Source: Parapedobacter luteus (GTDB lineage Bacteria > Bacteroidota > Bacteroidia > Sphingobacteriales > Sphingobacteriaceae). Taken from it: a stretch of 64,000 bases of DNA. Location of the stretch: the NCBI RefSeq assembly GCF_900168055.1, contig NZ_FUYS01000004.1, forward strand, positions 62,001 through 126,000. The letters run 5' to 3'. Made by a program: the position numbers and the translations under genes. This document shows positions 2 to 28,846 of the stretch, one piece after another (the stretch's first letter is position 1; each line of letters opens with the position of its first letter). The notes under the pieces are model-generated. The model worked only from the letters and a program-made list of their open reading frames with translations, did not search any database and had not been told where the DNA came from.

Positions 2-3000
2 TTGACTGCATATGAAGTGTTTATTCATCGGCTTACCGGCCAGGACGATATTGTTATTGGCCTTCCGGCCGCAGGGCAATCTGCCACCGGACATTTCAGC
101 TTAGTAGGGCATTGCGTCAACTTACTTCCTATTCGGAGTAAGATCGATGGCCAGGTATCATTCTTGGATCACCTAAAGCGACGCAAATCAGCGATTCTTG
201 ATGATTTAGATCACCAACAGATCTCATTTGGAACGTTACTCCAAAAGCTGAACGTCAAGCGCGACCCGTCACAGATCCCGTTGGTCTCCGTGGTATTTAA
301 CATTGACATGGGGATGAATTCGAATGTATCATTCTATGGAACCACACATCGCCTGATATCAAATCCCAGGGAATACGAAACTTTTGACATCTTCTTAAAC
401 GTCTCAGGTTCTGAAGAAGCGCTGACATTGGAATGGTCTTACAACACACAGTTGTTTAAACCGACAACGATTGCGGCGATGATGAGGCAGTTTACAGATC
501 TCTTGAACACCGTTATTGCGCAGCCTTCCGTGAAACTGATGGATATCTCGATCAATCAGGACGCTGAAGCCGATATCAGCCGGCACACGACGGAAGTAGC
601 CTATCCTAAAGACAAGCCCTTCACTGCATATATTACGGAAATTGCCGCAGCAACGCCGGATAAAACCGCGATTAAATTCAAAAACAAGGCAATAAGTTAC
701 CGGGAGTTGGAAGAACGCTCAAACCAATTGGCGAATTACTTGGTTGCCAAAGGCGTGACGACAGGAGCTATTATCGGCGTAGCCTTGGATCGCTCTATCG
801 ACATGGTGATTGCCTTGCTTGGCGTCGTTAAGTCGGGAGCAGCCTATATACCCTTAGACCCAAACTATCCGGTTAACCGTATCGAGTTTATGCTTCACGA
901 TTCGGCGGCGAAATTCTTGCTGACCGAATCGAAATACAGCCGTCTTTTCGACAGCCAGGCGAAGGAGTTGCTTTACGATGAACTGCTTACCGATCTGGGC
1001 GCTTATCCAAGCGAAACACCACAGCGACTTATCCAAGGCGACAACCTTGTTTATGTGCTGTATACCTCCGGGTCTACCGGAAATCCGAAGGGCGTACAAA
1101 TCGAACATCATAGCCTTTCAAATTTATTATTGAGCGTGCAACAAGAACCGGGCATTCATACCAATGATACCTTACTCGGCGTTACGACGATTTCGTTCGA
1201 TATTGCGGGGGTTGAACTTTACCTGCCATTAATTGCGGGCGCCACTCTATTACTGGCGGATGCCGAGACGGCTCGGGATGGCAAGCAATTGCTCCATTTG
1301 GCCACAAAGGAACATGCAACGATTATCCAAGCAACCCCAGCTACGTGGCGCATGATGCTGGAATCTGGCTGGACGGCTAAATTGCCTATCAAAGCCATTT
1401 GCTGTGGCGAAGCCTTCCCAAAAGATCTCGCATATAAACTACTTGAAAAATGCCAATCCGTTTGGAATATGTATGGCCCGACCGAAACGACCATTTTTTC
1501 TACCGGAAAAGAGCTAACGAAGGATTCTATTGACCAGATTACCATCGGCAAACCCATCGCCAATACAAGGGTGTATGTACTGAACGAGGCCTACCGGCCT
1601 CTGGGAGTAGGCCAAGAAGGGCAGCTTTTCATTGCTGGAAGCGGTGTGGCCCGAGGCTATGTAAACCGTCCAGCGCTCACAGCTGAAAAATTTGTTGCGG
1701 ATATCATGGAGCCCGACACAAAAATGTACGCGACGGGTGACCTCGGCATTTTACTCGATAATGGTGAGTACCTCTGCTTAGGCCGTATCGATCATCAAGT
1801 CAAAATCAGGGGACACCGCATTGAGCTGGGAGAAATCGAACACCACTTATCCACATTGGACGGCATAAAAAATGCCGTCGTCATGGCTCGCGAAGACGCC
1901 CCTGGCAACCAACGTCTTGTGGCCTATTTGATCATCGAACGAACGAAAATATCGCGAGAAGATGTTAAAATTTGGCGAGAAGCACTTTCTACCAAACTAC
2001 CAAATTATATGCTTCCCAATGATTGGGTAGCGATCGACGCTTTCCCTCTCACGGCAAATGGTAAAATAGACCGGAAAGCTTTGCCGAAGCCTTCGACCTC
2101 GTCCGCCGTTGAAGGGGCTCGCCATGAATCAGCACTCACGACGAATGAACAAAAAGTGTTCGACATTTGGGCCGCTGTCTTCAAGACAACGGATATTCGG
2201 AAAGACGACGACTTTTTTGAGTTAGGTGGGCATTCCCTCCTTGCCGTCGAAGTGATAACACGGATAGAGAAACAGCTAGGCAAACGTCTGCCGTTAGCTA
2301 GTTTGTTTAACAGCCCTACCATAGAAAAATTAGCTTTACTCCTTGACGACGAAGAAACGCTTCAATGGAACTTACTTGTGCCCATAAAGCCCGAGGGGAA
2401 AAAACCGCCTCTTTATATCGTGCATGGCGCGGGAATGAATGTGCTTGCATTCCAACCCTTATCCAATCACCTCGACCCTGATCAGCCAGTGTATGGGCTG
2501 CAAGCCAAAGGACTCGACGGCGTAACCGCTCCAGCAGAAACCGTGCAGGAAATCGCAAAAGACTATGTCGATGAAATTTGCAAGCACTATCCCTCCGGCC
2601 CATACGCCATAGCCGGATATTCAGCGGGAGGCACCATAGCCATCGAGATGGCTAAGCAGCTTAAAGACGCAGGGCAAGAGGTCCTCTTCGTAGGTCTTAT
2701 TGACTCCTACCCTCACAATGTCTCCAATGACTATAAAACGGTATGGAATCGAGGCTTAGGCCATTTCTTGAAATTCATCTACATGAAGGCAATGCATGTA
2801 CTTGTTTATTTATTCAAGTACCCAAAAACATATCTTCGCGATCGCTATAATTACATAAGGGGCTTCATTTACAATATCTTTAAACGTTTTTTCCCCGACA
2901 CCGAGCTGATTGACACGGAGCCGGCGCATATCAAGGCCATTCAGTGTGTGCATGAGCGGGCTATGCGGCATTACCACATCCCATATTATGACGGTGCGGT

Positions 3001-3229
3001 CTGGCTCTTCCGGACAACGGTAAAAACCACGTATTTCCTTAACTATCGGACGAATGCTTGGGATACGAAGTTATTCAACAGGTTTTCGGTAGTGAATATC
3101 GATGGCGAACATTCGGAAATTTTTAAACCGGCGTTTGTAAAGATACTCGGAAAAAGGCTGCAGGCAGAATTAAACCATGCAAAAACGATGCAAGAAGCCT
3201 CAACAGATCGCTGCGTAGGCGAAGCTTAA
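2..3229 (+). CDS. Nonribosomal peptide synthetase, C(partial)-A-PCP-TE, 5' end outside window
   Basis: The C-terminal part of an NRPS; the reading frame is open to the left edge, so the gene begins upstream. In the visible 1075 residues, about 1-190 are the end of a condensation domain. An adenylation domain follows, with YTSGSTGNPKGV near 354, YATGDL, GRIDHQVKIRGHRIELGEIE near 594 and NGKIDRKALP near 686. Next come a carrier domain (LGGHSLLA, phosphopantetheine Ser near 745) and a thioesterase (GYSAGG, Ser near 873). This is the layout of a final module that loads one amino acid, condenses it and releases the product. By eye the substrate pocket reads D-I-V-Q-I-C-M-I-F, from which I predict no amino acid. 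A PPTase gene at 29495 could activate the carrier. The next gene is a glycosyltransferase, so the product may belong to the polysaccharide locus, but this is inference. Confidence 0.93.
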   Translation: MTAYEVFIHRLTGQDDIVIGLPAAGQSATGHFSLVGHCVNLLPIRSKIDGQVSFLDHLKRRKSAILDDLDHQQISFGTLLQKLNVKRDPSQIPLVSVVFNIDMGMNSNVSFYGTTHRLISNPREYETFDIFLNVSGSEEALTLEWSYNTQLFKPTTIAAMMRQFTDLLNTVIAQPSVKLMDISINQDAEADISRHTTEVAYPKDKPFTAYITEIAAATPDKTAIKFKNKAISYRELEERSNQLANYLVAKGVTTGAIIGVALDRSIDMVIALLGVVKSGAAYIPLDPNYPVNRIEFMLHDSAAKFLLTESKYSRLFDSQAKELLYDELLTDLGAYPSETPQRLIQGDNLVYVLYTSGSTGNPKGVQIEHHSLSNLLLSVQQEPGIHTNDTLLGVTTISFDIAGVELYLPLIAGATLLLADAETARDGKQLLHLATKEHATIIQATPATWRMMLESGWTAKLPIKAICCGEAFPKDLAYKLLEKCQSVWNMYGPTETTIFSTGKELTKDSIDQITIGKPIANTRVYVLNEAYRPLGVGQEGQLFIAGSGVARGYVNRPALTAEKFVADIMEPDTKMYATGDLGILLDNGEYLCLGRIDHQVKIRGHRIELGEIEHHLSTLDGIKNAVVMAREDAPGNQRLVAYLIIERTKISREDVKIWREALSTKLPNYMLPNDWVAIDAFPLTANGKIDRKALPKPSTSSAVEGARHESALTTNEQKVFDIWAAVFKTTDIRKDDDFFELGGHSLLAVEVITRIEKQLGKRLPLASLFNSPTIEKLALLLDDEETLQWNLLVPIKPEGKKPPLYIVHGAGMNVLAFQPLSNHLDPDQPVYGLQAKGLDGVTAPAETVQEIAKDYVDEICKHYPSGPYAIAGYSAGGTIAIEMAKQLKDAGQEVLFVGLIDSYPHNVSNDYKTVWNRGLGHFLKFIYMKAMHVLVYLFKYPKTYLRDRYNYIRGFIYNIFKRFFPDTELIDTEPAHIKAIQCVHERAMRHYHIPYYDGAVWLFRTTVKTTYFLNYRTNAWDTKLFNRFSVVNIDGEHSEIFKPAFVKILGKRLQAELNHAKTMQEASTDRCVGEA

Positions 3230-3375: not shown

Positions 3376-4167
3376 ATGCAGTATCCAGATGTAACATTGT
3401 TAATTACACACTACAACAGAAGCAGTTCCCTTGAAAAATTGCTGTCAAGCATCAGTGAACAGCGCTTAACGTTCGGTGCCATTGTGGTATCAGATGATGC
3501 CAGCAACGCGCTTCACTCGGCCCACCTCAGGGAATTGTGTGATATTTATCCGATTCAATTGGTCACCGCAGCGAAGAATGGGGGCCTTGGCCATAACATT
3601 AACAAGGGACAACGTGCCGTCAAAACACCGTATACACTATATGTGCAGGAAGATTTTCAACCAACCGGTGCATTTCCTCGTGCCTTTGGCGATGCGTTAG
3701 AGCTAATGGAAGACGACCGCACGCTGGATTTGGTAAGTTTTTATGCCTATAAACCATATCCGTATACCCGGCCATACCGAAAAGGGTATTCTGAAAAACT
3801 ATTTAAACCGATGCCTTGGTATGCCAATCACCTAAAATTCTATGTATACAGCGACCATCCGCACCTCCGACGTAACGAATTCCAGAATAAGTTTGGGGCT
3901 TATGCAGAAGGTGTTAACAGTGACAGGACCGAGCGGCTTATGGCACTTTCTTTTATCAAGAACAAGGGAAGAGCATTGGTCTACGACAATCACTATGGAT
4001 TGTTTGTCCAAGAAAACACAACAGACGAGCCAAGCACGGCTACATTCAGGAGCAACTGGCGACAAAGCTCCAATTGGGCGGTAAAGACCATCCGATATGC
4101 CTATCTAAAATGGAAGGTTATCGACCAAACCTATCAGCTCGCTACCTTTAAGAAAAATACACATTAA
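3376..4167 (+). CDS. Family 2-like glycosyltransferase, paralog A
   Basis: Soluble 263-residue GT-A type glycosyltransferase, likely adding a sugar to the lipid-linked repeat unit at the cytoplasmic face. The N-terminus VTLLITHYNRS and the nearby VVSDD are typical of the nucleotide-sugar binding part of GT2 enzymes. Instead of a classical DxD it has YVQEDF (residues 89-94) after a PYTLY strand, and it carries SDHPHLRR at 159-166. The same two blocks are shared with the products at 4179 and 5863, so the three form a local paralog family. It is the first gene of a plus-strand run ending with wzx. Sugar donor and acceptor cannot be told from the sequence. Confidence 0.85.
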   Translation: MQYPDVTLLITHYNRSSSLEKLLSSISEQRLTFGAIVVSDDASNALHSAHLRELCDIYPIQLVTAAKNGGLGHNINKGQRAVKTPYTLYVQEDFQPTGAFPRAFGDALELMEDDRTLDLVSFYAYKPYPYTRPYRKGYSEKLFKPMPWYANHLKFYVYSDHPHLRRNEFQNKFGAYAEGVNSDRTERLMALSFIKNKGRALVYDNHYGLFVQENTTDEPSTATFRSNWRQSSNWAVKTIRYAYLKWKVIDQTYQLATFKKNTH

Positions 4168-4178
4168 TCACATTGATA

Positions 4179-4976
4179 ATGGCTACACATACAACACATT
4201 TCGATAAAATCAGTCTATTGGTCACTCATTTCAACAGAAGCAAGTCTTTAGAGCGGCTGTTGTCTAAATTACGCGAACACGGCGTATCCTTTGCCGAAAC
4301 TATTGTTTCCGACGGTGGGAGTAATTCAGAACACTTGAGATACGTGAACCACTTGCGATTGGATTTCGGGTTCACGCTGCTAACAACAACCGAAAATAAA
4401 GGCTTGGGCAACAGCATCAACGTGGGGCAAGATGCCGCAAAAACCCCTTATATCCTTTACATTCAAGAAGATTTTGTCCCCAAGAGCGACATCATTCCGG
4501 TGCTGACTGATGCTTTTAATATCATGGAACACGAAGAAGAATGGGACATTATCAGGTTTTATGCATTCCCTTGGGCGCGTTTCCCCTACCTAAAGCCTTA
4601 CAAAAAGGGATTTTCAGAAATGGTATTCCATATTGCGCCTTGGTACACTGACCACACCAAATTCTTTGCATACAGCGACCACCCACACCTCAAACGCAGA
4701 TCGTTTCCCGAGAAATTTGGTCGTTACTACGAAACATTAAGTGGCGATGTAACAGAGATGAAAATGTGCCGCTCATTCTTACGCCATAAAGGGAAAGGAT
4801 TGTATTACCATCATGACAATGACCTTTTTGAGCATGATAATCCATTGGAGGAACCCGGACAAGTGCGGGAAGCCCAATTAAAGCGCCAGCGCTTACGCCA
4901 GTTACCTGCGCTTCGATGGGCTTACCTGAAATATCGCATGCTGCGCGACACGGTGCTGCTTTTACAGAACAAATAA
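4179..4976 (+). CDS. Family 2-like glycosyltransferase, paralog B
   Basis: 265-residue paralog of the 3376 product: ISLLVTHFNRSKSLERLL at the N-terminus, then NKGLGNSINVGQDAAKTPY, YIQEDF and YSDHPHLKRRSF. A TTG six bases upstream gives a slightly longer frame, but the ATG at 4179 fits the paralogs better. It follows the previous stop by 11 nt and precedes the next gene by 12 nt, so co-transcription is very likely. The C-terminal 50 residues are basic and may touch the membrane. Donor and linkage are unknown. Confidence 0.85.
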   Translation: MATHTTHFDKISLLVTHFNRSKSLERLLSKLREHGVSFAETIVSDGGSNSEHLRYVNHLRLDFGFTLLTTTENKGLGNSINVGQDAAKTPYILYIQEDFVPKSDIIPVLTDAFNIMEHEEEWDIIRFYAFPWARFPYLKPYKKGFSEMVFHIAPWYTDHTKFFAYSDHPHLKRRSFPEKFGRYYETLSGDVTEMKMCRSFLRHKGKGLYYHHDNDLFEHDNPLEEPGQVREAQLKRQRLRQLPALRWAYLKYRMLRDTVLLLQNK

Positions 4977-4988
4977 ACGCAAGGAAAT

Positions 4989-5849
4989 ATGAGCATGTTA
5001 AAAACCCCTGCTTGGCTACGACAACATATCCATCCTTACGCTTCGGCCGAAGCAATCCCGGAGAAGTGCTTCGATGACATCAATGGGCGGCTTGACCAGC
5101 TTAACCGTGGCGAATCACCATTGGTCTCGATCTTAATTGCAGCATGGAATGAAGAAGTCAACATTCTGAACTGCATATCCAGTCTTTCCGCGATGGAAAG
5201 CTCATTGCCTTTCGAGATCATCGTCATCAACAACAACTCGACGGACCGCACACAGGAAACTATCGACAAACTTCACGTCAAATCGCTTTTCCAGCCTATC
5301 CAAGGGTGCGGACCGGCCAGGCAAATGGGGCAAGAGCATGCTAGCGGCAAGTATATCCTATTGGCGGATGCCGACTGTATCTATCCTCCCTGTTGGCTGG
5401 ATGAGATGATGGCAATGCTGCAAAAACCGGACGTAGTGTGTGTCTACGGCAGGTATTCGTTTATTCCAGAAAAGGGGTATCCGAGATGGAAACTTTACCT
5501 GCTTGAGCGGATGAAAGATATCATTGCGGAATTGCGGCATTTCAAACGTCCTTATTTAAATGCCTACGGCATCAGTATGGGTTATGTGAAAGAGCTCGGC
5601 TTAAAGGTCGGTTATGTGATGTATAAGATCTGGGGAGACGATGGACGGTTATGTTTTGATCTGATGCAATACGGAAAAGTAAAACAGGTAAAAAATAATG
5701 AGTCCAGGGCGTGGACGAGTCCGCGAACCCTTCAGCGTGACGGTAGCTTTCGCAAGGCGCTGGCTTCGCGGATCAAGATCGAACTTAAGCGGCTTGGCTC
5801 CATGTTTACCCCACATCCGCCTCACGACACAAAAACATCACAAAACTGA
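4989..5849 (+). CDS. Glycosyltransferase family 2 (canonical DxD)
   Basis: 286-residue GT2 enzyme of the ordinary kind, unlike its three neighbours. It has VSILIAAWNEE (the donor-binding start of the fold, near residue 46), IIVINNNSTDRT and LADADC, the last giving the metal-binding DxD. No membrane segments are evident. It sits in the tight plus-strand operon, between paralogs B and C, and probably adds one residue of the repeat unit. A second possible start two codons downstream (ATG at 4995) would not change the domain. Confidence 0.87.
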   Translation: MSMLKTPAWLRQHIHPYASAEAIPEKCFDDINGRLDQLNRGESPLVSILIAAWNEEVNILNCISSLSAMESSLPFEIIVINNNSTDRTQETIDKLHVKSLFQPIQGCGPARQMGQEHASGKYILLADADCIYPPCWLDEMMAMLQKPDVVCVYGRYSFIPEKGYPRWKLYLLERMKDIIAELRHFKRPYLNAYGISMGYVKELGLKVGYVMYKIWGDDGRLCFDLMQYGKVKQVKNNESRAWTSPRTLQRDGSFRKALASRIKIELKRLGSMFTPHPPHDTKTSQN

Positions 5850-5862
5850 CCCGGGCATAGAT

Positions 5863-6627
5863 ATGGAGTTTCCCAACGTTACGCTGCTAATCACTCACTA
5901 CAACAGGAGCCAATCCCTCGAACAGCTACTAACGACTATTAATGCACTACAGCTGTCTTTCGGAGATATCGTCGTATCGGACGACGGAAGTGCTGCCAAA
6001 CATGCCCGCGCCCTTACGGCCCTGGAAAAAAAGTTTGGCTTTCGTCTGATCACCACTCCAGTAAATAAAGGGTTGGGGCACAACCTGAATAAAGGTCAGG
6101 ATGCGGTTAGAACACCATATACGCTGTATGTGCAAGAAGACTTCATTCCGCATGAGGCATTCGGACCGATACTGGAAAAGTCCCTGAGTATCATGGAGAA
6201 GCGGAGTGATTTGGATATCGTCAGGTACTATGCTTACCTACCGTTTCCCTATCTGAAACCGTTCGACGAGAATTTCGGAGAGATGTTTGTTCCCTTGAGT
6301 GGTATTCATTACACAAAAATTTATGCCTACAGCGATCATCCTCATCTCAGAAGGAGCGATTTCCTAACAAAATTCGGACGATATGCAGAAGGACTCAAGG
6401 GAGACCGCACGGAATACAAAATGTGCATATCGTTCATTCAATGTGGGGGCAAAGGACTTTTTTATCGTGATTTCAAGCGACTATTCACACAAGCTAATTC
6501 GATTTCAGAGCCCAGCACCATGCACCGCGTAGCTTGGCGGCAAAGCAAGAATTTGCTCATATCCGTTGCACGCGACTTTTATCGGCAAATCAAATACAAT
6601 CTGGATATTTTATTCATGAGGCCATAA
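5863..6627 (+). CDS. Family 2-like glycosyltransferase, paralog C
   Basis: 254 residues from the ATG at 5863. An open frame runs further upstream, but it overlaps the previous gene and has no homology to the paralogs, whose N-termini match MEFPNVTLLITHYNRS here. Shared blocks are NKGLGHNLNKGQDAVRTPY, YVQEDF and YSDHPHLRRSDF. It is closer to paralog A than to B by eye. The start lies 13 nt after the preceding stop, and the wzx gene follows by 28 nt. The function is inferred as in paralogs A and B. Confidence 0.85.
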   Translation: MEFPNVTLLITHYNRSQSLEQLLTTINALQLSFGDIVVSDDGSAAKHARALTALEKKFGFRLITTPVNKGLGHNLNKGQDAVRTPYTLYVQEDFIPHEAFGPILEKSLSIMEKRSDLDIVRYYAYLPFPYLKPFDENFGEMFVPLSGIHYTKIYAYSDHPHLRRSDFLTKFGRYAEGLKGDRTEYKMCISFIQCGGKGLFYRDFKRLFTQANSISEPSTMHRVAWRQSKNLLISVARDFYRQIKYNLDILFMRP

Positions 6628-6655: not shown

Positions 6656-8020
6656 ATGGGAATTAGAGGCAATATAACGAAAAACTACTGGATAAAATCC
6701 GGCTTGTTAAGTTTATTCCAAAACATTTTTAACGTTGCGTTCGGCTTCGGCGGCTTTTATTTTTTGATTAGAGTACTCAGCAAGGAGCAGTACGGCACTT
6801 ATGTGCTTTTCCTGGCTACTGTATCCATCATCGAGCTTACGCGGAATGGGCTGCTGCAAAATGCAATGATCAAATTTATCGCCGGAGTTGAAGAGCGCGA
6901 AAAGCCGGCCGTCGTTTCTACTTCCCTGTTAATCAACCTAGGCATCACCTCATTGCTGTCATTGATCATACTGGCATTGGCCCCAATTTTAAGCTATGTT
7001 TGGGATACGCCAGCGATCACTACAATGCTCTATCTCTACATCATCGCTTTCTTCATTTCGGGCATCCAAATGTTCTTTAATAGTGTAGAACAGGCCTATT
7101 TAAACTTCAAAGGGCTGTTTTACTGTAGCTTTACTAGCCAGATCATCAGTTTTGCCTACATCTCGACCTGTTTTTTTCTCGGCATCGAGATTTCTCTGAT
7201 TAGCTTGGTGCTTGTCAACATACTGTCTACTACGATCAGTACAATACCTGCTTGGCGATATGCCCGACATAACCTGCCCGCATTATCACTCAAGCTCCAT
7301 ATCAACTGGATGAAAAAGATGCTGGATTACGGGAAATACGCCATGGGAACATCAGTAAACGCTTTGTTATCAAGCACGATAGATCAAATGATGTTGGGCG
7401 CTTTGCTATCCCCTGCTTCCGCAGGTAAATTCAATATTGCACTGCGAATTAGCAACCTTGCCAATATCCCCAGCAATGCGATGGCAACAATCGTATTCCC
7501 GCAGGGCTCAAAACGTGCAGAAACCGAAGGAAACACGGCGCTGAAATACCTGTACGAAAAATCGGTGGGCAGCATCCTCGCAATATTAGTGCCTGCTTTA
7601 TTATTCATTTATATACTGGCTGACCCGATTATTCACTTTGTCGCGAGCGAGAAATATGCTGACGCTATTCCGCTACTCAAAATCACACTTATTTACAGCC
7701 TGTTTATTCCGTTTAGCAGACAGACCGGAACCATCCTCGAATCAGTAGGAAAAACAAAATTGAATTTTTACCTCGTTCTATTTACCGGAATTTTTAATAT
7801 GTTGCTAAATTTCTTTTTCATCAGCCGATGGGGCGTATTGGGTGCCGCTTATGCGACCTTAGGGACAAACTTTGTGTTCTTCGGCGTGTCCCAGTACTTC
7901 AACAGGAAGCTATTCAACGTCAGTTTGCTTAATCCATGGATCTATGCCATCCAGTTTTATCCGGAAATCTTCCGAAAACTCTTCCCGCGTAAGCCGGCGC
8001 CTCGGTATGAAATAAAATGA
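6656..8020 (+). CDS. Wzx-type oligosaccharide flippase (MOP superfamily)
   Basis: 454-residue polytopic membrane protein with about 12 hydrophobic segments and the general pattern of RfbX/Wzx polysaccharide transporters (N-terminal LLSLFQNIFNVAFGFGGFYFLIRVL, later FSRQTGTILESVGKTKLNFYL). It should turn undecaprenyl-linked repeat units across the inner membrane, upstream of the Wzy-like enzyme at 14506. It is the last gene of the tight plus-strand run, and a hairpin at 8031-8081 follows its stop. The exact specificity is not predictable. Confidence 0.88.
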   Translation: MGIRGNITKNYWIKSGLLSLFQNIFNVAFGFGGFYFLIRVLSKEQYGTYVLFLATVSIIELTRNGLLQNAMIKFIAGVEEREKPAVVSTSLLINLGITSLLSLIILALAPILSYVWDTPAITTMLYLYIIAFFISGIQMFFNSVEQAYLNFKGLFYCSFTSQIISFAYISTCFFLGIEISLISLVLVNILSTTISTIPAWRYARHNLPALSLKLHINWMKKMLDYGKYAMGTSVNALLSSTIDQMMLGALLSPASAGKFNIALRISNLANIPSNAMATIVFPQGSKRAETEGNTALKYLYEKSVGSILAILVPALLFIYILADPIIHFVASEKYADAIPLLKITLIYSLFIPFSRQTGTILESVGKTKLNFYLVLFTGIFNMLLNFFFISRWGVLGAAYATLGTNFVFFGVSQYFNRKLFNVSLLNPWIYAIQFYPEIFRKLFPRKPAPRYEIK

Positions 8021-8152: not shown

Positions 8153-8160
8153 TTACTTTG
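8153..8160 (+). promoter_or_regulatory. Candidate -7 element of the beta-helix gene
   Basis: TTACTTTG matches the Bacteroidota -7 consensus TAnnTTTG at all but one defined position and lies 42 nt before the ATG at 8203. A convincing -33 element is not visible. Confidence 0.35.
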
Positions 8161-8202
8161 AAAGGCTGTTTACCGAACAGACATTTTTTTACAGTATACG
8201 AT

Positions 8203-11313: not shown

Positions 11314-11333
11314 ATATTGAACGTCCTTTATTG

Positions 11334-11912
11334 TTATTTAGTTGCCCAGGACCGTTGACCGAGCAAGACGAGCGGCACACAGGGCTGATAGCTTTGCGGT
11401 GTGGCTTGATAATTTAAGCAGCGCGTGGCTCCCAGTAGCGATGTGCAATACCCCTCAACGGTATAGGCTTTTAAGTAACTGATAAAAGAAAAACCAAACA
11501 ATTTACGCTTCACCTTAATTAATAACGGGTGCAAAAACAGCTGCTGGTCTTCCAGGCATTCGAGGATTTTCACCCGCTGGTCCATCGTGCAATTCATAAA
11601 AGATTGCCCATAGCCTTTCCGAGATAGTTGTTCAATGTCGCCAAGCCCATCAATAAAAAAGTTCTGTTCTCTCCGGTCGAGGTAAAAAATAACCTTCCCA
11701 ATAACGAAATCAGCTACGCCCGCTTCTTTGGCCCCCGGTGAGTCGGTCGCTGGAATAATGGTTTCAACAAGCTCGCTAATCAATGGCCTCATGGCGTTCA
11801 GTTTGCCCAAATCGGGCTTTCTGCTCGTATAAATGACCCATTTCAATAATGGGTAGGCAGTTATCACACCCACCAACACCATGATCAGATAAAGCGCACG
11901 CCGCCTCGTCAT
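11334..11912 (-). CDS. Gluconate 2-dehydrogenase subunit 3-like partner protein
   Basis: 192 residues. An N-terminal RRR followed by a hydrophobic stretch (LYLIMVLVGVITAYPLL) looks like a Tat or membrane-anchor signal. The body contains LVETIIPATDSPGAKEAGV and later segments typical of the Gluconate_2-dh3 family, whose members chaperone or anchor GMC dehydrogenases. It overlaps the upstream glycosyltransferase by 4 nt (ATGA type) and lies 20 nt before the GMC gene, so the two should be made together. It has no catalytic residues of its own. Confidence 0.82.
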   Translation of the reverse strand: MTRRRALYLIMVLVGVITAYPLLKWVIYTSRKPDLGKLNAMRPLISELVETIIPATDSPGAKEAGVADFVIGKVIFYLDRREQNFFIDGLGDIEQLSRKGYGQSFMNCTMDQRVKILECLEDQQLFLHPLLIKVKRKLFGFSFISYLKAYTVEGYCTSLLGATRCLNYQATPQSYQPCVPLVLLGQRSWATK

Positions 11913-13114
11913 TTTTCCGTTAGGTTTTCTATCTCCGTAATCTGTTTGACCACCGAATGCTGGGTAGCTACTGAAATTTTGTTGGCTTTCCGGGCTTTAA
12001 ATAGTGAAACAAGCTGAAGGGCCATAAACCGGGGAATCCGCCATAACGATCGATACACCCGGCGATCTAACTTACTATGCCATAATGCATTTAAAAAAGC
12101 AACGACAAACAAACTCAGCCCTACCAGCCAAAACGCTGCATGCAAAGGATAAACAAGGAGGTCGACCATCAGGAAAAACAATGCACCCAGCAAAAAGATA
12201 AATAAGGGCGGTCGTAACAGGGTCAAACCGAATAGCACCTGGTTGACATCCAACTTTCGTAGTCCGCTCGCCAGTAGCCGGAAACCGAATCCCATGTACT
12301 TAAACCATGTATTGATCCACCGCGCACGTTGGTTGACCAACTGGGTAGCCTGTGCTGTTTTCTCATCATATACAATGGCGGATGGCGCGAATGCTATGCG
12401 ATATCTGCGTTTTACAAGCTCATATTGTAAAACTTTATCAAAACCGGCACCAGTGATGTCCAGGTTACCCAGGCACTGCTTATACAATTCAGTTGTGAAT
12501 GCCATCCCCGAGCCAGCCAAGGTAGCGGAAGATCCGACACCAAATAACAGCGCACCATCGTAATAGTGGTAATAGCTGTCGCGGGCAGCATCCAAGCACG
12601 CCAGCGTAGTGTCGAGATTCTTGGGCTTGCGTATCCCTTGGACGGCAACAAAGCCGCGGTTGAACCACTGATCCAATTCACGAAGATAATCGGGATGTAC
12701 TAAGTTGTCGCTGTCGATAATCGTAAGCCGCTCATGTGGACGCCTAAACCGATCGATAGCATAGAAGTGTGACCGTGTATTGCTGGCTAATACTTGCTCG
12801 GGCTGAAGGAGGACTATCCGTTCATCCTTGATGTCCAAGGCGGAGCAATCACAGTTGTCTGCAACGACATATACCATAAACCGGTTATAACGCAACTTTA
12901 ATATGGAATCTATTACTGCGGGCAGTGAATCCACCTGACCGTAGGCCGTCACGATAATTGCGTAATCCGTTTCAGTAACGGCGGCACCGCCCGACATGGG
13001 GCTGCGCCGCATCCGGGTTATGGTTACATACAACAAATAAAGCAGTATGGGAGCAACAAGATGTACGCCCACTAACAGTTGCATTCCGAACCAAAAAAAA
13101 TCAAAAAAGTCCAT
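11909..13114 (-). CDS. Membrane glycosyltransferase family 2, QxxRW type
   Basis: 401 residues with an N-terminal membrane segment, a GT2 core (YAIIVTAYGQVDSLPAVIDSIL; IDSDN as DxD near residue 130) and a QRARW motif near 270, followed by hydrophobic segments. QxxRW is the acceptor-site signature of processive enzymes such as cellulose, hyaluronan and poly-GlcNAc synthases, though it also occurs in single-addition relatives. Gene order in the minus operon: GT1-like (13151), this gene, then the dehydrogenase pair. Processivity is not certain. Confidence 0.83.
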   Translation of the reverse strand: MDFFDFFWFGMQLLVGVHLVAPILLYLLYVTITRMRRSPMSGGAAVTETDYAIIVTAYGQVDSLPAVIDSILKLRYNRFMVYVVADNCDCSALDIKDERIVLLQPEQVLASNTRSHFYAIDRFRRPHERLTIIDSDNLVHPDYLRELDQWFNRGFVAVQGIRKPKNLDTTLACLDAARDSYYHYYDGALLFGVGSSATLAGSGMAFTTELYKQCLGNLDITGAGFDKVLQYELVKRRYRIAFAPSAIVYDEKTAQATQLVNQRARWINTWFKYMGFGFRLLASGLRKLDVNQVLFGLTLLRPPLFIFLLGALFFLMVDLLVYPLHAAFWLVGLSLFVVAFLNALWHSKLDRRVYRSLWRIPRFMALQLVSLFKARKANKISVATQHSVVKQITEIENLTEK

Positions 13115-13150: not shown

Positions 13151-14335
13151 TCATGCAAGTTTCATTGCCTTATATATTTTTTCAACGCTATTTTCCCAGG
13201 TGTGGTTACCTGCAATATCGGCGCGTCTCCGCCTTACAGCCACTGAATCTTCTTGCAAAGCCAATTCGATTAAGCGCGGATAGTCGTGCGCACTATCTGC
13301 CAAATATACGATATCGCCAAACTCTGCCATGGCCCTTGTTCGTGTTGCGACGACCGGCTTGCCTAAAGCAAGATATTCATCAACTTTCCGTGGGTAATTA
13401 CCTATAGTCAGGTCATTGACCGCTTGTGGGTTAACACAGACATCAAACCGGCTAATGTAGTGTGCCAGTGTTGAAAGCGGCTTTAGCCCGATGAACCGTA
13501 CATTGCTCAATTCGTGCAACTTGCTTTTTTGAAACACCTCATCTTCGGGTCCCACCAGCACCAGCGTCCAATCGGTACGCTCAGACGCCAGCCGCTCAAG
13601 CAACGATACATCAAGCCGGATACTTTGCAACGCACCGACGTAGCCGATTATCGGCGTATCGATACCTTGCAGTTCAGGAGGAACAGGGTAAGTTTTACCA
13701 AAAGAAAAATATCGGAAATCGCACCCTTGGCCTACATAATGTGCGTTGGGGTTATACTGCTTACAATAATCAGCCAAGTACAGCGAGTTAGCTACACAGA
13801 CATCATTCATGGCAATAACCCGCGGTTCCAACCAAGCGCCATGTTTCTTCCAATACGGCGTGGCCAAGATATAGTCCCTTGAATAATACACGCTGCGCTT
13901 GGGTTTTAGCAGATCTGCTAAGTAGTGACATTTGATGATCTCATTGTCATTGAATAGGTAGAACTGGTCAAAGCCAAGCCGTTTAAGTGCTTTCCGTATG
14001 GCATCGGCAAAACGCCGGTTGTTAGCTTGATTGATCTTATCGAAAAGCCACTTGTTGCTGAGCCAGTTGATTGACTCCACCATACAATCAGGGTAAAGAT
14101 TCCAAAGGTTTGGGGCAAGCTCAATCAGCCCTTCAGATTTGCCGGAAATAACATCTAGCCGCTTCCGGATCCCTGGATCATTTCGCGACCGCATCGATGT
14201 GATCCTATCCAATGGCGAATTGACATACAAAACACGGTTGTGTTTGCTAAATACCAGGGCTATATCCTTGCAATTGCTGCCGATTGCCGTATCCCAAGGC
14301 TGCTGGCCTACAATGACGATATTCTCATTCACCAT
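13151..14335 (-). CDS. GT-B glycosyltransferase (family 1/4-like)
   Basis: 394 residues. The N-terminal half starts NIVIVGQQPWDTAIGSNCKDIA, and the C-terminal Rossmann half has IIGYVGALQSIRLDVSLL, the donor-site region NPQAVNDLTIGNYPRKVDEYLALGKPVVAT and a conserved Glu near its end. This resembles bacterial exopolysaccharide GT-B transferases that use nucleotide sugars. It is located 36 nt upstream of the membrane GT2 gene in the same operon. Sugar specificity is unknown. Confidence 0.83.
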   Translation of the reverse strand: MVNENIVIVGQQPWDTAIGSNCKDIALVFSKHNRVLYVNSPLDRITSMRSRNDPGIRKRLDVISGKSEGLIELAPNLWNLYPDCMVESINWLSNKWLFDKINQANNRRFADAIRKALKRLGFDQFYLFNDNEIIKCHYLADLLKPKRSVYYSRDYILATPYWKKHGAWLEPRVIAMNDVCVANSLYLADYCKQYNPNAHYVGQGCDFRYFSFGKTYPVPPELQGIDTPIIGYVGALQSIRLDVSLLERLASERTDWTLVLVGPEDEVFQKSKLHELSNVRFIGLKPLSTLAHYISRFDVCVNPQAVNDLTIGNYPRKVDEYLALGKPVVATRTRAMAEFGDIVYLADSAHDYPRLIELALQEDSVAVRRRRADIAGNHTWENSVEKIYKAMKLA

Positions 14336-14505: not shown

Positions 14506-15936
14506 CTATCTACGCTCACTATCCATTTTGGGGCCCAAGTAGATCAACGCCCAAGAAACATACACCACGAGTGATGCGGGTATCCGGTTGATAACCTCGT
14601 TTCCGTAGCTTGACACAAAAATCCCTACGGTGCCCGCCAACAACGCGATCAGTTTTATTCGCAATCCGGGATCACGGATGCGCCAGATATACCCGCCGCA
14701 TTTGCCTTGGATATACAGCATCATGCAAAACCAAATAGTCAAGCCGACAACTCCATACATTGCCCACACTTTCACCCAGTAGCTATCCGGCTCAATGGTG
14801 GAGATAAACTTGTCACTGTTATATTCGTGGCCCCAAGTACCGATCACGCCCAAGCCTTCGCCGAACGGTTTGTTCTTCAGATGATCGTTCAAAATTTGCT
14901 GATTCTGAAAGCGGAGGTTAAGTGATGCATCCTGAGGGTCAAGAGCGGTCCGCAAACGGTAAATATGATAATTGCCGCTACCGATGTGCGTATACTTCAA
15001 AAACGCCAGTGCGCAAATCCCCATGATTAACCCAAGCGTCAACACCTTAAAGTTCTTAAAAAGGAAAATAGCTGAGAATGCGCCAAAGACCAGCACAAAG
15101 AGCGCCCCTCGCGTACCTGAGATGAGCATACCATACAACAGGATACCGCCAGCAATCAACAACAACCCTCTTACCCAAATTTTATAGGGTCCAAAACAAA
15201 GAATCAGCGCGACCAAAGCGATATGTGCCTGAGACGCACCAAACATGCCTGCATCGGTATAAAAAGAGAAAACTCGCAACTTGCCCCATATCAAATGTGT
15301 GCTCGCCACCTGCTCCAAAAAAGCCTGCTCGCCTGGTAACAACCCGATGCGCAGCTGTCTCAGTCCATTCAGCGCGGCGAGCACCGACAGGGCGATAATC
15401 AGCACAAGAAAGATATTGAGATGCCGTTCTTTATTGAATACGAGAAAGACCAACGGAATGATAAGCAACGCATGAAGTGCAGCACCCCGCAACTCCTGTA
15501 CCCAGCCCATAACGCTTGCGCCCGAAGGATTGGCTACCTGCAGCACACTAATCAGAAACCATAACAGCGTAAGTCCTACCAAATCATTACGCACATGGCG
15601 CCAATCTGCTTCAGACGCATTAAACAGTGCAGCTATCCAGCTGATCACCAAAAGCCCTTCGACACCTATTCCAAATGGAACAGACACGATCTCCCGGCCA
15701 AAAAAGGGAAGAATAAAACTGTAAGCTACTGTTATCAAAACCCCTATTTCGGGCCTTTTGAAAAGCACAATAAGGAATGCGACCGCTGCCCACAGCAGCG
15801 CCGCAAGCGCACCACCTAGGATATCCCAACGGAACACCACGTACCCCGTGGCCAACGCTGTTGCTATCCCTGCAAACAATAGCAGGTTTCCGATGGTGAG
15901 TCTGGATTTCAATGTTGCTAACTGCTGATGCGCCAT
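14506..15936 (-). CDS. Wzy/O-antigen ligase-like polysaccharide polymerase
   Basis: 476 residues with about 10-12 hydrophobic helices and a large extracytoplasmic loop containing RLRTALDPQDASLNLRFQNQ and KPFGEGLGVIG, the pattern of the O-antigen ligase/polymerase (Wzy_C) domain. SGTRGALFVLVFGA precedes it. It should polymerise flipped repeat units on the periplasmic side, working with Wzx (6656) and the Wzc-like protein (15948). It lies 11 nt downstream of the Wzc-like gene. Ligase and polymerase roles cannot be separated by sequence alone. Confidence 0.83.
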   Translation of the reverse strand: MAHQQLATLKSRLTIGNLLLFAGIATALATGYVVFRWDILGGALAALLWAAVAFLIVLFKRPEIGVLITVAYSFILPFFGREIVSVPFGIGVEGLLVISWIAALFNASEADWRHVRNDLVGLTLLWFLISVLQVANPSGASVMGWVQELRGAALHALLIIPLVFLVFNKERHLNIFLVLIIALSVLAALNGLRQLRIGLLPGEQAFLEQVASTHLIWGKLRVFSFYTDAGMFGASQAHIALVALILCFGPYKIWVRGLLLIAGGILLYGMLISGTRGALFVLVFGAFSAIFLFKNFKVLTLGLIMGICALAFLKYTHIGSGNYHIYRLRTALDPQDASLNLRFQNQQILNDHLKNKPFGEGLGVIGTWGHEYNSDKFISTIEPDSYWVKVWAMYGVVGLTIWFCMMLYIQGKCGGYIWRIRDPGLRIKLIALLAGTVGIFVSSYGNEVINRIPASLVVYVSWALIYLGPKMDSERR

Positions 15937-15947
15937 AGAACTATCGA

Positions 15948-18110
15948 TTAGTTTACCGAGATGTTGGGCCGCACTTTCACCTGATTAAGCACCCACCCCA
16001 TAAAACCTTTCATACCAACAAGGCTTTCCAAAAATCCACTGTCGGCGTCACTGAAGGATTCTCCGGACTTAAACACCGCGATGCTGCAATCGGTAAACAT
16101 CAGCCATTCTTTAGCCCGGTTGACATCTTTCAAACTATTAATGTCAATCAGTATGATGTCAAATGTGTCACGCAATATTTCGAATCCGGCGATCAAGTTG
16201 TTGGCGTCTCTCATTTCCAGCAAGGATGTGTTGTCCGGGTTACGCTTCAATACGGTAATCAGATCTTCCGCCTTGATTTCTTTTTTCACCAAAAACTTTT
16301 CAAACTGATTGGCACCAACTTTATCTTCATTAGCGATGAGTGAAGCAAGGTCGTTGCAATCGTCTCCAATCATCAGCACCTTCTTGCCAGTGAGCGCAAA
16401 CGCATAGGCTAGACTGGAGGCGACAAATGTCTTGCCTTCCGACCCGGAAATACTGGTAATACCCAGCACCTTCCATTGATTATCGACCATTGTGTTCGAG
16501 ATTTCAAAACGCAGCGCCCTTACCAAATCTTTATATACTTGACGACTGAAGTCGCTTTCCTCGCTTTCCCAAATTGTCCGCAGGTCCTTGCTTTTACCTT
16601 TCACCAAACTCAATGCGCCCAATACTTTATGCCCGGTTCTTGCTTGTAACTGCCTCGAATCGACGATTTTGTTGTCCAACAGGAAAAATATCAGAAAAGC
16701 GGTAAAGCAAATCGCCATACTTGCGATACCTGAACCGGCTATATACAAACTTTTCTTCGACGGTTCCGGCAGACCCGGTAATCCTTCTTGTATGATCCTT
16801 AAGCGCAATCGCCCTGCATTTTCGGTATTGGCTTGGTTATAGCGATTCAGCGCTTCCGTGTATTCTTGAACGGAAAGCTGTGCCTCGCGTTCCAGATCCT
16901 GTACACCTGCTTCGGCAGGGGCCATGGTGTAATACCTGCTTTTCAGCGATGCCAAATCGCGTTCGATGGCAGAAATACTGTTTTCGGCCCTGGCCAGTTC
17001 GATTTCCAATGTGGTCCGCTCCTGTATCAGGTTTTGCCTGTTTGCCTGTGGATTGTTCAGCTGCTTATTCGAAATTCTCGCCACAATAGTCGAGCGCACG
17101 CGCTCCAGAGAATCCACCGCACGCTTATCTTGCAGGCTAAAATTATTGTCGACGTAGCGTTTACTGGCCAGTTCAATTTCCCTACCGATACGCAACAGCT
17201 CATTATTCTCGGCAGCTACCGCCGAATTCACATCTGCATCATTTGCATTTCCTAATTTTTCGTTGATCCGCCGTATAGCCCCGCTGATGGACTGAACATC
17301 GCTGAGCGCCTGCGATCGCTTGGTTTCGTATTCGGCAATTTGCTGATACAATGCTTCAGCCTGCGCATCGATATTGACCACACCGCTGCTTGATTTGTAA
17401 TTACGAAGCAAGGCGTTTTTTTCATCCATAATGCGCTTTTTCTCAACCAACATCGAATCCAGCAACGCCATCGTACTGGTTTCGTTCCGCGTTGCGGTCA
17501 GGTAATAATGGCCTATGAATGCTTGGGAGAGCGTATTGACAGCATAGACCGACAATGCGGAATTTTCCGAAATAAATTCTATATTAACAATATCGGTTTC
17601 CCCCCTGCGCGAAATGCTTAGGCTCTCAAGCAAGCGATCTTCGTCATATCCAATCATAGCTAAGTAGTCGAAAAACGGGTAGTCACCGTTATCCAGCAAC
17701 GACATCGGTTTTCCTGCCGCAAGCCGCTGCTTATACCATTGGATCACCTCATTCCGTTGCTGCACGGTTAATTGGGCCAATTCTTCAGGTAAAGGACGGA
17801 ATGCTCTTTCCGGACTTTCTAAGTCATGTAAAATGAGGTGGATGGACAGCTTGTTGATGACATTTCTGGATTGCATCATCTCTATCAAGCCGTTGAACTG
17901 CTGCATCACCCGATAATAATCATTGGCGGAAGCACTGAGCAACTCTTGCGTCCTGTCGGCGATCCCCGTAGCGATTTGAGCCTCCGACCGATATTGGTCA
18001 GGAAGATTCTTGACCAGAAAATAAGTAGTCAGCAGGCAACAAACGGTCACCAATCCGATTATCCACAAACGTCGTTTCAGGAATCGTAAAAATGCGGCTA
18101 TGTCTATCAT
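15948..18110 (-). CDS. Wzc-like chain-length determinant with degenerate tyrosine-kinase domain
   Basis: 720 residues: an N-terminal membrane helix (LWIIGLVTVCCLLTTYFLV) and Wzz domain, a long periplasmic coiled region (about 190-430), a second membrane helix near 455-480 and a cytosolic P-loop domain. Walker A is present (ISGSEGKT near 555). Walker A' reads KVLMIGDDCN instead of the usual IDADxR, so the first Asp is Gly. Walker B is LIDIN without the usual following DxxP context, and there is no C-terminal tyrosine cluster (the end is VKVRPNISVN). It probably controls chain length and assembly but may not autophosphorylate. It is the second gene of the operon, 6 nt after the TolC-like gene. 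Confidence 0.87.
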   Translation of the reverse strand: MIDIAAFLRFLKRRLWIIGLVTVCCLLTTYFLVKNLPDQYRSEAQIATGIADRTQELLSASANDYYRVMQQFNGLIEMMQSRNVINKLSIHLILHDLESPERAFRPLPEELAQLTVQQRNEVIQWYKQRLAAGKPMSLLDNGDYPFFDYLAMIGYDEDRLLESLSISRRGETDIVNIEFISENSALSVYAVNTLSQAFIGHYYLTATRNETSTMALLDSMLVEKKRIMDEKNALLRNYKSSSGVVNIDAQAEALYQQIAEYETKRSQALSDVQSISGAIRRINEKLGNANDADVNSAVAAENNELLRIGREIELASKRYVDNNFSLQDKRAVDSLERVRSTIVARISNKQLNNPQANRQNLIQERTTLEIELARAENSISAIERDLASLKSRYYTMAPAEAGVQDLEREAQLSVQEYTEALNRYNQANTENAGRLRLRIIQEGLPGLPEPSKKSLYIAGSGIASMAICFTAFLIFFLLDNKIVDSRQLQARTGHKVLGALSLVKGKSKDLRTIWESEESDFSRQVYKDLVRALRFEISNTMVDNQWKVLGITSISGSEGKTFVASSLAYAFALTGKKVLMIGDDCNDLASLIANEDKVGANQFEKFLVKKEIKAEDLITVLKRNPDNTSLLEMRDANNLIAGFEILRDTFDIILIDINSLKDVNRAKEWLMFTDCSIAVFKSGESFSDADSGFLESLVGMKGFMGWVLNQVKVRPNISVN

Positions 18111-18116
18111 AAGGCA

Positions 18117-18800
18117 CTATTTCTCAATGTCAGTTAATTTTACTCCAATGATTTCCTCCAAGGCATCCTTAGCCACAAGTAAATTCATCTCGGCTTGTAG
18201 TATTTCAGCTTGGGATGACGACACAGCGGATTTAATGGTGGAATAGCTTTCGATATCGACTTCCCCTCGTTCAAACTTCAGCTGCGCATCCTGCAACAGC
18301 ATTTTGCTATCACTTGCGGCTTGAGTTTTTACTTTATAATCTTCAAGCACGAGGATATATTCATAATAGCGTTTTTTCACCTCGTTCTCCAGTGTGCGTT
18401 CATAGGCCTGCCGCTCCAGCTGGGTGATTTTGTAGTCTGCTTTGGCCTGCTTTGTCAAAAAGGGTCGTTGGATTAAAGACGACAGGTTGATGTTGATACC
18501 GTATTGGAACCCGTTGAATACATAAGGGTTATCGGGGCTGAGCGCAGCTCTTTCATTCGGCCGGTAAAAATAAGATACATTGAACATGTCGAGATATCCT
18601 ACCGGTTGCGAACGGTAAAGGCTCTTGGCTTTCTCTTCATTAAGTTCCATCACTTTAAGCTGCGGATAATACGCTTTTGCTAATTCAATGAAACGCTCTA
18701 ATTGCTTTTCGTTCATGTTGCCGATGACCGTTGCGTCTTGCGCCCTGACCATCACCGAACAGACCATGAGTAGACAAACGGTTAATTTAAATTCCTTCAT
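18117..18800 (-). CDS. Half-length TolC/OEP-like periplasmic protein
   Basis: 227 residues with a Sec signal (cleavage after VRAQ). It contains a long helix pair, an amphipathic strand pair (FNVSYFYRPNE and GFQYGININLS) and another helix pair, matching only one of the two repeats of the TolC outer-membrane efflux family (normally about 400-480 residues). It is the first gene of the operon with wzc and wzy. No SLBB-type Wza exporter gene is present in the window, so this protein may form or help form the outer-membrane exit as an oligomer. That role is inference; truncation is also possible, but start, stop and signal all look intact. Confidence 0.72.
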   Translation of the reverse strand: MKEFKLTVCLLMVCSVMVRAQDATVIGNMNEKQLERFIELAKAYYPQLKVMELNEEKAKSLYRSQPVGYLDMFNVSYFYRPNERAALSPDNPYVFNGFQYGININLSSLIQRPFLTKQAKADYKITQLERQAYERTLENEVKKRYYEYILVLEDYKVKTQAASDSKMLLQDAQLKFERGEVDIESYSTIKSAVSSSQAEILQAEMNLLVAKDALEEIIGVKLTDIEK

Positions 18801-21655: not shown

Positions 21656-21691
21656 AATAATTAAGAAAATATAAGTATATGTACAAAAAAA

Positions 21692-27757: not shown

Positions 27758-28846
27758 CTAAACTTTTTCTTTCTGCAACAAAGCAGGAACAGTTTTCAGT
27801 AAAATCTTCAAATCCATCCAGAAAGAGAAGTGCGTAGCGTAGTCATTATCCAAGCGCCGACGCTCTTCATCTGACATCTCACTTTTCCCGCGTTTCGTCA
27901 CCTGCCATAGCCCGGTGATTCCAGCAGGCCCTAAAAACCGCATCGCCCATTCGTCAGACGTTAATTCTTGCGCTTCATAGAGCGGTAACGGCCGGTTTCC
28001 CACTAATGACATATCGCCCCTAAACACATTAAAAAGTTGCGGCAGCTCGTCTAAACTGGTGTTGCGTAAAAACGATCCCAATCGCGTTACACGCGGGTCA
28101 TCTTTAATCTTGACAAATGCCGATGTCCCTCCATTTGCGGCATATTGGTTCAAGGCGGCAAGCTTTTCAAGTTCTTTATCCGCATTTACCTTCATGGATC
28201 GGAACTTGTAAAAACTAAAAACCTTGTACCCTGTTCCGGCACGTTTACTCTTATAGATAATTGGTCCTTTCGAATCCAGTTTAATCAGTAAAGCAATGAC
28301 GGCCATCAATGGAGCTAACAACAACAATAATGTACCTGAAAATAAGATATCAAACGCCCGTTTGGACAATGGAATTTGATACGGTTGTGCCTGTCCCTCC
28401 CGTGTGCGGACCGAAGCGTGCTTATCCCCGATCAACTTGAACTTGACAAGAAATTTCAGCCGTTCTTCGATATTCGACACGTTGAATGGATAGCAATAAA
28501 TATCGCTCACATACGGCGCAAACATCTCGGTCAACAACGCCCTGTTATTTTTGAATCCAAGAAGGATAATACTGACAGAACGCGAAAGGGGGTTAGCCTT
28601 TATTCCTTTGATAAACGAATGAATGCTTGACAACTCGTCTTCCACTTCCAGGATAAGGATATCGGGAATGCTGAGAATGGACTGGTTTTCGACGTGCCTT
28701 TTGACATCAGCCAATTTGCTGAACCGGATAACATCAATATCATCATGGAGCGCCTCATCCAATTCATCGACGAATTTGGTTCCCAGATAAGCTACGGAAA
28801 TCGTTAGAAATTTATTTTCTTGTTTTATCTTAGTTAACAAATCCAT
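27758..28846 (-). CDS. Initiating undecaprenyl-phosphate sugar transferase with N-terminal pseudo-receiver
   Basis: 362 residues. The C-terminal part (about 155-360) is a bacterial sugar transferase: RAFDILFSG with one membrane helix, FYKFRSM, SLDELPQLFNVF and GDMSLVGNRP, the same family as WcaJ/WbaP/PglC. It should load the first sugar phosphate onto the lipid carrier. Residues 1-135 resemble a response-regulator receiver fold, but the phospho-Asp position is Glu (E67 in PDILILEVED) and the conserved Lys before Pro is Tyr (Y119). The gene overlaps the true receiver gene upstream by 17 nt. A regulatory input to the first step of synthesis is therefore likely (inference). Confidence 0.87.
   Translation of the reverse strand: MDLLTKIKQENKFLTISVAYLGTKFVDELDEALHDDIDVIRFSKLADVKRHVENQSILSIPDILILEVEDELSSIHSFIKGIKANPLSRSVSIILLGFKNNRALLTEMFAPYVSDIYCYPFNVSNIEERLKFLVKFKLIGDKHASVRTREGQAQPYQIPLSKRAFDILFSGTLLLLLAPLMAVIALLIKLDSKGPIIYKSKRAGTGYKVFSFYKFRSMKVNADKELEKLAALNQYAANGGTSAFVKIKDDPRVTRLGSFLRNTSLDELPQLFNVFRGDMSLVGNRPLPLYEAQELTSDEWAMRFLGPAGITGLWQVTKRGKSEMSDEERRRLDNDYATHFSFWMDLKILLKTVPALLQKEKV

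Follow-up and report, generated by a model that had tools for sequence, protein, structure and literature searches.

What do three neighbouring, similar glycosyltransferase genes in Parapedobacter luteus make, and did one of them give rise to the other two? The stretch analysed here (the window) comprises 64,000 nucleotides of contig NZ_FUYS01000004.1, and the genes in question, named copies A, B and C, start at its positions 3376, 4179 and 5863. From the letters alone, the original prediction had described an unusual group of GT2-type glycosyltransferases, with QED in place of the usual DxD metal motif, that arose by local triplication. The group is borne out by our comparisons; the triplication is not. 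A, B and C are members of a distinct, so far uncharacterised but recognisable GT2 clade, and the trio consists of old paralogues from separate lineages. They quite probably act as cytoplasmic GT-A glycosyltransferases, which add sugars with inversion to the lipid-linked repeat unit of an exopolysaccharide.

A distinct clade within GT2

The three genes are arranged with two others as follows (window positions):

3376..4167, plus strand: copy A, GT2-type glycosyltransferase of 263 aa carrying QEDF and SDHPHLRR; outside the beta clade defined below
4179..4976, plus strand: copy B, same family as A, with SDHPHLKR and a His where most members have Gln210 (265 aa; outside the beta clade)
4989..5849, plus strand: ordinary GT2 with DAD as its DxD motif, between B and C (286 aa; PF00535, 95 bits)
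5863..6627, plus strand: copy C, same family as A (254 aa; beta clade; query for the structure model)
6656..8020, plus strand: Wzx-like flippase (Polysacc_synt_3 by Pfam; homologues in 66 of the 84 family loci described below, some only 21-27% identical)

A, B and C each begin with ATG at the positions given; mechanical calls of open reading frames (ORFs) differ, starting B from a TTG at 4173 and C from 5698, inside the preceding gene. Since the intergenic distances are only 11 bases from A to B, 12 from B to the GT2 gene, 13 from there to C and 28 from C to the flippase gene, the five genes likely constitute a single operon. The alignment gives identities to A of 41% for B and 49% for C, and of 43% between B and C. 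The motifs by which the trio had been recognised (THxNRS, QEDF and YSDHPHLR/KR) are common to all three and coincide with conserved columns, from which B departs slightly (SDGGS, SDHPHLKR). The gene between B and C had likewise been described correctly as an ordinary GT2, as its PF00535 score and DAD motif confirm.

The sole Pfam model passing its cut-off (23.3 bits) for A, B and C is Glycos_transf_2 (PF00535), with 43.5, 43.7 and 41.6 bits, respectively, against 95 bits for the neighbouring ordinary GT2; all 77 members of the diverse alignment match it at E ≤ 0.01. None of the NCBIfam models (EpsD, PgaC, PglI and others) reached its cut-off for A, B or C. The best NCBIfam match of C, at residues 5-121, was TIGR04440, a TIGR00180-type glycosyltransferase domain, with 33.8 bits (21 for A and B) below a cut-off of 70; only the N-terminal half aligns with this model, which all 77 members match at E ≤ 0.01. 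Searching the sequences of solved structures with C alone yielded weak matches (best E 0.009). A, B and C thus lie within the GT2/GT-A clan, and the profile searches set them apart as a distinct clade and not as plain members of a characterised GT2 subfamily. Within the literature collection searched, combining QEDF with glycosyltransferase, or 'QED motif' with GT2, retrieved no publication.

A profile of A, B and C matched 87 of 301 same-family genomes at E ≤ 1e-20, the own genome included, in 14 of 25 genera; the sharing of motifs is therefore not due to chance. Within the own genome the matches at E ≤ 0.001 were three, namely A, B and C. Phylum-wide, 14 of 395 genomes matched at E ≤ 1e-10. 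Six of these matches cover most of the profile; the other eight, at 44-49 bits, are limited to about its first 110 positions, which is what generic GT2s would give. A sister type that has QEDF and YSDHP and lacks HLRR is present in two of the six (G449, G512). Sister proteins of this QEDF/YSDHPF kind (L109 and L110, from two genomes of another family) match the profile with about 150 bits across most of their length and keep QEDF, YSDHP and a Glu aligned to E184; they differ from C in carrying FIIR or FVTK for HLRR and are 31% and 27% identical to it. Both sister genes (L109:1447-2277 and L110:1336-2124) are located between an ORF of about 495 codons, glycosyltransferase-like by eye, and one of 339 codons.

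A scan of species genomes (one genome per species) with the patterns PY[TI]LY[VI]QE and K[FI][YF][AV]YSDH gave 193 confirmed stretches, the best 80 of which were kept and yielded 78 loci. All 78 carry Bacteroidota names, an assignment made from the names and the genera they denote (for tree rows, from their labels). A phage or plasmid origin was considered and set aside: tblastn with C found no match in plasmid or phage collections, and none of 26 pattern matches in a scan of viral contigs was confirmed as a relative, although such a lack of matches does not prove absence; the genome-by-genome profile searches covered this phylum. A viral structure library contained many GT-A-type folds with 9-18% identity.

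Ancestry of the three copies

In a FastTree reconstruction of 181 copies, C falls inside and A and B outside a clade of 98 copies (support 0.88). Copies outside this clade are termed alpha and those inside beta, a split that relies on the midpoint root and on the support of 0.88. A second tree, built under a mixture model from 66 rows, unites B with Pedobacter and same-genus copies in a clade of five rows (support 100). It sets A next to another Pedobacter and same-genus group (support 83) and joins C to copies of Pedobacter sandarakinus and Siphonobacter (support 86). B clearly has nearer relatives elsewhere; the placement of A and C has moderate support.

A recent local triplication, in which two further copies of a single gene arose in this lineage to add the same or nearly the same residue three times, would account for three neighbours on one strand with shared motifs. 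The approximately unbiased (AU) test, however, rejected a clade of A, B and C (p 9e-57) as well as one of A and B (p 2e-5), and left only the pairing of A and C unrejected (p 0.08), while the mixture-model tree joins each copy to different outside relatives. In the same-genus genome G078, the best blastp counterparts of B, A and C are scattered over three places on two contigs, the third of them grouping with Mucilaginibacter copies and not beside C in the mixture-model tree. P. sandarakinus (L060), moreover, has the order copy, copy, flippase, a GT2 like that at 4989, and copy, and its three copies fall in the tree groups of A, B and C. Because of the trees, the AU test, the G078 layout and the P. 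sandarakinus order, we regard a triplication as highly improbable; on the age of the duplications, which the original prediction had proposed to date by alignment, the trees place A, B and C in separate older lineages.

The 78 loci hold two copies in 59 cases, one in 15, three in three and four in one. Among 55 adjacent same-strand pairs, alpha lies upstream and beta downstream in 47, whereas five are alpha-alpha, two beta-beta and one beta-alpha; the loci are related, and these pair and copy counts are not independent events. In the window the order is alpha, alpha, GT2, beta. The conservation of the ordered pair between families suggests that its two enzymes act one after the other on a single repeat unit.

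Predicted fold and putative active site

An AlphaFold2 model of C, based on 77 sequences (84 non-redundant members minus seven set aside on visual inspection because their N-termini were long or a contig end was near), reached a mean predicted local distance difference test score of 95.0 and a predicted template modelling score of 0.92. The top Foldseek matches were TarS, TarP and RmlT, with AvpGT and SpsA close behind. A second structural comparison ranked B4GALNT1 first (Z 19.4, root-mean-square deviation 2.3, 184 residues aligned), followed by TarS (18.3), RmlT (17.8), POMGNT1 (17.3) and GnT-I (16.9), rows within one unit of Z counting as tied. Z was at least 8 for 991 of 999 aligned chains, and the best rows were GT-A enzymes. 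C is predicted to adopt the GT-A fold, a common fold that in itself shows no function.

QEDF is invariant in all 181 aligned copies. In the loci from the scan this invariance is partly built in by the search patterns; 32 of the copies, from 19 loci, were found by profile and not by the motif scan, and all 32 carry QEDF (some of the profile-found genomes, e.g. G002, are also in the motif-selected set). Equally invariant are R15, D40, Q91-E92-D93-F94, D118, K152, D158, H161, M187, N212 and E216, whereas E184 is Glu in 180 of 181 copies (and in both sister proteins), R164 is Arg in 176 and R163 in 172. Position 210 holds Gln in 174 copies and His in seven, B among the latter.

Profile alignments lay Q-E-D on D-C-D of the chondroitin synthase of Escherichia coli K4 (2z87) and on D-A-D of the GT2 at 4989, a comparison that ends before the loop and the putative base and is informative for QED only. 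Judging from these two alignments, Gln replaces the first Asp of DxD and the last Asp is retained. The earlier assignment of E-D within QED to the metal position agrees with this in so far as the motif occupies the DxD place; the ligand is most likely the last Asp, Asp93. The common core of GT-A enzymes comprises DxD, a glycine loop, xED and a C-terminal His, and families with altered or lost DxD exist (PMC7185993). EDD is reported as the putative donor site of GnT-IV enzymes (PMC9296478), a further departure from D-x-D. Canonical DxD is absent from all 181 copies, which have QED with only its last Asp kept.

For the remainder of the core, a profile alignment with another GT2 of these loci places HPH..LRR, with a gap, on G-A-A-M-M-x-K-R before the catalytic helix, pairs the following stretch with A-G-x-M-A-E, and sets T-E (183-184) on the start of E-E-M-D, one residue off. 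SDHPHLRR contains no conserved Gly. Q210/H is one position off the aligned His; the weak alignment ends just before it, and the two were paired by counting on. In our reading, the family may keep the four core sites in letters of its own (QED, SDHPHLRR, TE and Gln210), QED being well supported and the other three candidates coming from one weak alignment. SDHPHLRR had been noted as a block not recognised among standard GT2 motifs. It is most likely a variant site and not an extra module, since the alignment lays it on the ordinary loop before the catalytic helix.

The surrounding locus, proposed function and known systems

On either side of the operon, the following genes were annotated:

Window 2-3229 and upstream (L102:12483-19169; contig positions 54483-65229): polyketide synthase (PKS) and non-ribosomal peptide synthetase (NRPS)
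8158-9612: no Pfam match, secreted-looking by eye
9616-11912: GMC oxidoreductase and gluconate-dehydrogenase subunit 3 (Pfam)
11909..13114, minus strand: polysaccharide-locus GT2 (homologues in 56 of 84 loci)
13151..14335, minus strand: GT4-type glycosyltransferase (70 of 84)
14506..15936, minus strand: Wzy_C / O-antigen-ligase-type polymerase (53 of 84)
15948..18110, minus strand: Wzz/Wzc-type chain-length protein (54 of 84)
18117..18800, minus strand: OEP (PF02321) by Pfam, presumed export protein (34 of 84)
27758..28846, minus strand: priming sugar transferase (PF02397; 34 of 84)
29495-30253: phosphopantetheinyl transferase, at the far end of the polysaccharide locus

The 84 loci are the 78 above plus six extra, two of which appear to repeat genomes (L119 with L033, L120 with L076); they were cut at about 10 kilobases (kb) on each side, and homologues are best blastp hits, some only 21-27% identical. 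Flippase, Wzy, Wzc, export protein and priming transferase are all present in the window (Pfam) and recur in relatives. Since homologues of the flippase, Wzy, Wzc and glycosyltransferase genes recur beside the family in most of these loci, the setting of the trio fits a Wzx/Wzy exopolysaccharide locus. The GMC oxidoreductase is 65-74% identical in relatives, and thus better conserved than the glycosyltransferases, and subunit 3 is 34-52% identical. Positions 20777-26721 hold an alpha/beta hydrolase, a UbiA prenyltransferase, a GT2, a GT4 and an ABC transporter group; the UbiA-GT2-GT4-ABC set also occurs near the PKS in G068, G093 and G013.

The window opens inside the NRPS gene (1350 codons; condensation, adenylation, thiolation and thioesterase domains), whose start, contig position 61177, precedes the window by 824 bases and whose end lies 146 bases before copy A. 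Upstream of it lies a PKS of 2229 codons with adenylation, carrier, ketosynthase, acyltransferase and aminotransferase domains and a second carrier stretch. The PKS was matched at E ≤ 1e-100 in 14 of the 60 genomes searched, the own included, and near full length in 12. At least three polysaccharide-gene homologues lie near it in 10 of these 12, again including the own, counted as best blastp hits within about 10 to 40 kb of flanking sequence retrieved for the 11 other genomes; in the two exceptions, G703 and G002, the PKS is at a contig end. Some of these homologues are weak (in G014, flippase 21% and Wzy 25%), and G003 has no Wzy or Wzc within the fetched part. The phosphopantetheinyl transferase presumably serves the PKS-NRPS; its homologues lie near the PKS in four of the 11 other genomes (G013, G014, G019, G057).

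Only three (G000, G002, G019) of the 11 same-family genomes with the PKS also hold the QEDF family, so that PKS-NRPS and QEDF glycosyltransferases look like separate modules of one locus type. Among the papers listed by literature searches on NRPS/PKS in polysaccharide loci, none dealt with such an arrangement; the PKS WcbR/RkpA of capsule clusters is a different enzyme but a precedent (PMC3908369). Tentatively, the polysaccharide of this locus could carry, or be anchored by, a PKS-NRPS peptide, with the QEDF enzymes, acting as ordered paralogues, as one of several interchangeable glycosyltransferase cassettes. From its domains, the PKS-NRPS is predicted to link a beta-amino acid, possibly a 3,4-diamino acid, to a second amino acid. 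If this product is part of the polymer, the polysaccharide would bear a peptide substituent made on an assembly line. The PKS-NRPS beside polysaccharide genes may turn out to be more interesting than the glycosyltransferases themselves.

Starting from what the comparisons directly provide (the clan, the predicted fold, the position of QED in the alignments, the locus, and the finding that B, like the trio taken as a set, has a separate ancestry), we infer the following course as to metal use, role of the loop, base, inversion, donor, acceptor and order of addition. A nucleotide sugar would be bound in the cytoplasm, with Asp40 at the base and ribose. Asp93 of Q-E-D would hold the metal, and the SDHPHLRR loop would position the diphosphate, which basic loop and metal together would stabilise. 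Glu184 would serve as the base and activate the acceptor, an undecaprenyl-linked repeat unit, to which one sugar would be added with inversion. The flippase encoded at 6656 would flip the unit, and the products of the Wzy, Wzc and export genes downstream would complete the exopolysaccharide. As A, B and C are divergent, they probably make different additions, with different donors or linkages; three related linkages, as the original prediction had suggested, may be formed.

Several points weigh against this proposal. Sequence, profile and literature searches found no member with known activity or solved structure. The alignments weaken from about residue 150 onwards, with Glu184 shifted by one position against the canonical E and D, and the pairing of the SDHPHLRR loop with the other GT2 requires a gap. 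Tree support is modest, with 7 of 63 inner branches at 95 or above and 30 open. Finally, the Asp of xED is missing from some inverting GT-A families, and some families with this fold work without a metal after losing DxD (PMC7185993), which makes metal use and mechanism less certain.

The last point leads to retaining or metal-independent GT-A enzymes, in which the Gln-for-Asp exchange and the basic loop would replace the usual metal chemistry. Members of GT14 and prokaryotic GT6 have lost DxD and need no metal (PMC7185993). In the present family, Gln at the first DxD position in all 181 copies, the conserved Arg/Lys and two His of the loop, and Gln near the C-terminal His position in 174 copies are in line with such a chemistry. 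The last Asp of the motif is, however, invariant in all 181, and GT13 enzymes with E-D-D are metal dependent, so that we consider this mechanism rather unlikely. Still less probable is that the trio acts on the PKS-NRPS product and glycosylates a small peptide instead of a polysaccharide repeat unit. The NRPS gene ends close to A, and one contig of G019 carries both the PKS and a family member, separated by about 21 kb; nevertheless, none of the 84 family loci contained an ORF best-matching this PKS or NRPS within its flanks of about 10 kb, and the family accompanies the PKS in few of the same-family genomes that have it. Inverting, metal-using addition of sugars to a lipid-linked repeat unit is thus the function we prefer.

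With its strict conservation and its changed metal motif, this GT2 clade represents a clean target for assigning donor and linkage in the exopolysaccharides that Bacteroidota of soil and freshwater make (Mucilaginibacter, Pedobacter, Dyadobacter, Hymenobacter). Literature searches on exopolysaccharide genetics in Mucilaginibacter and Sphingobacteriaceae returned little beyond one genome report on such an organism (PMC6260751), whose consulted passages name no such enzyme.

Among known systems, the GT2 clan of PF00535 shares with the family the same core and an SDD-type nucleotide site; the family differs in QED for DxD, the SDHPHLRR loop and lower bit scores. Among GT2-type enzymes, the GT-A fold is also common to 2z87, the best profile match, and to the best fold matches, TarS/TarP of Staphylococcus aureus and RmlT of Listeria monocytogenes. 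These are larger proteins with only about 12-16% identity, and 2z87 has D-C-D where the family has Q-E-D in the aligned stretch. B4GALNT1 (GT12), POMGNT1 and GnT-I reach high Z-scores, yet they are eukaryotic enzymes of other families and are absent from the sequence-level matches. POMGNT1 and GnT-I belong to GT13, whose E-D-D resembles Q-E-D, whereas B4GALNT1 has a DxD formed by D356 and D358 (PMC12217166).

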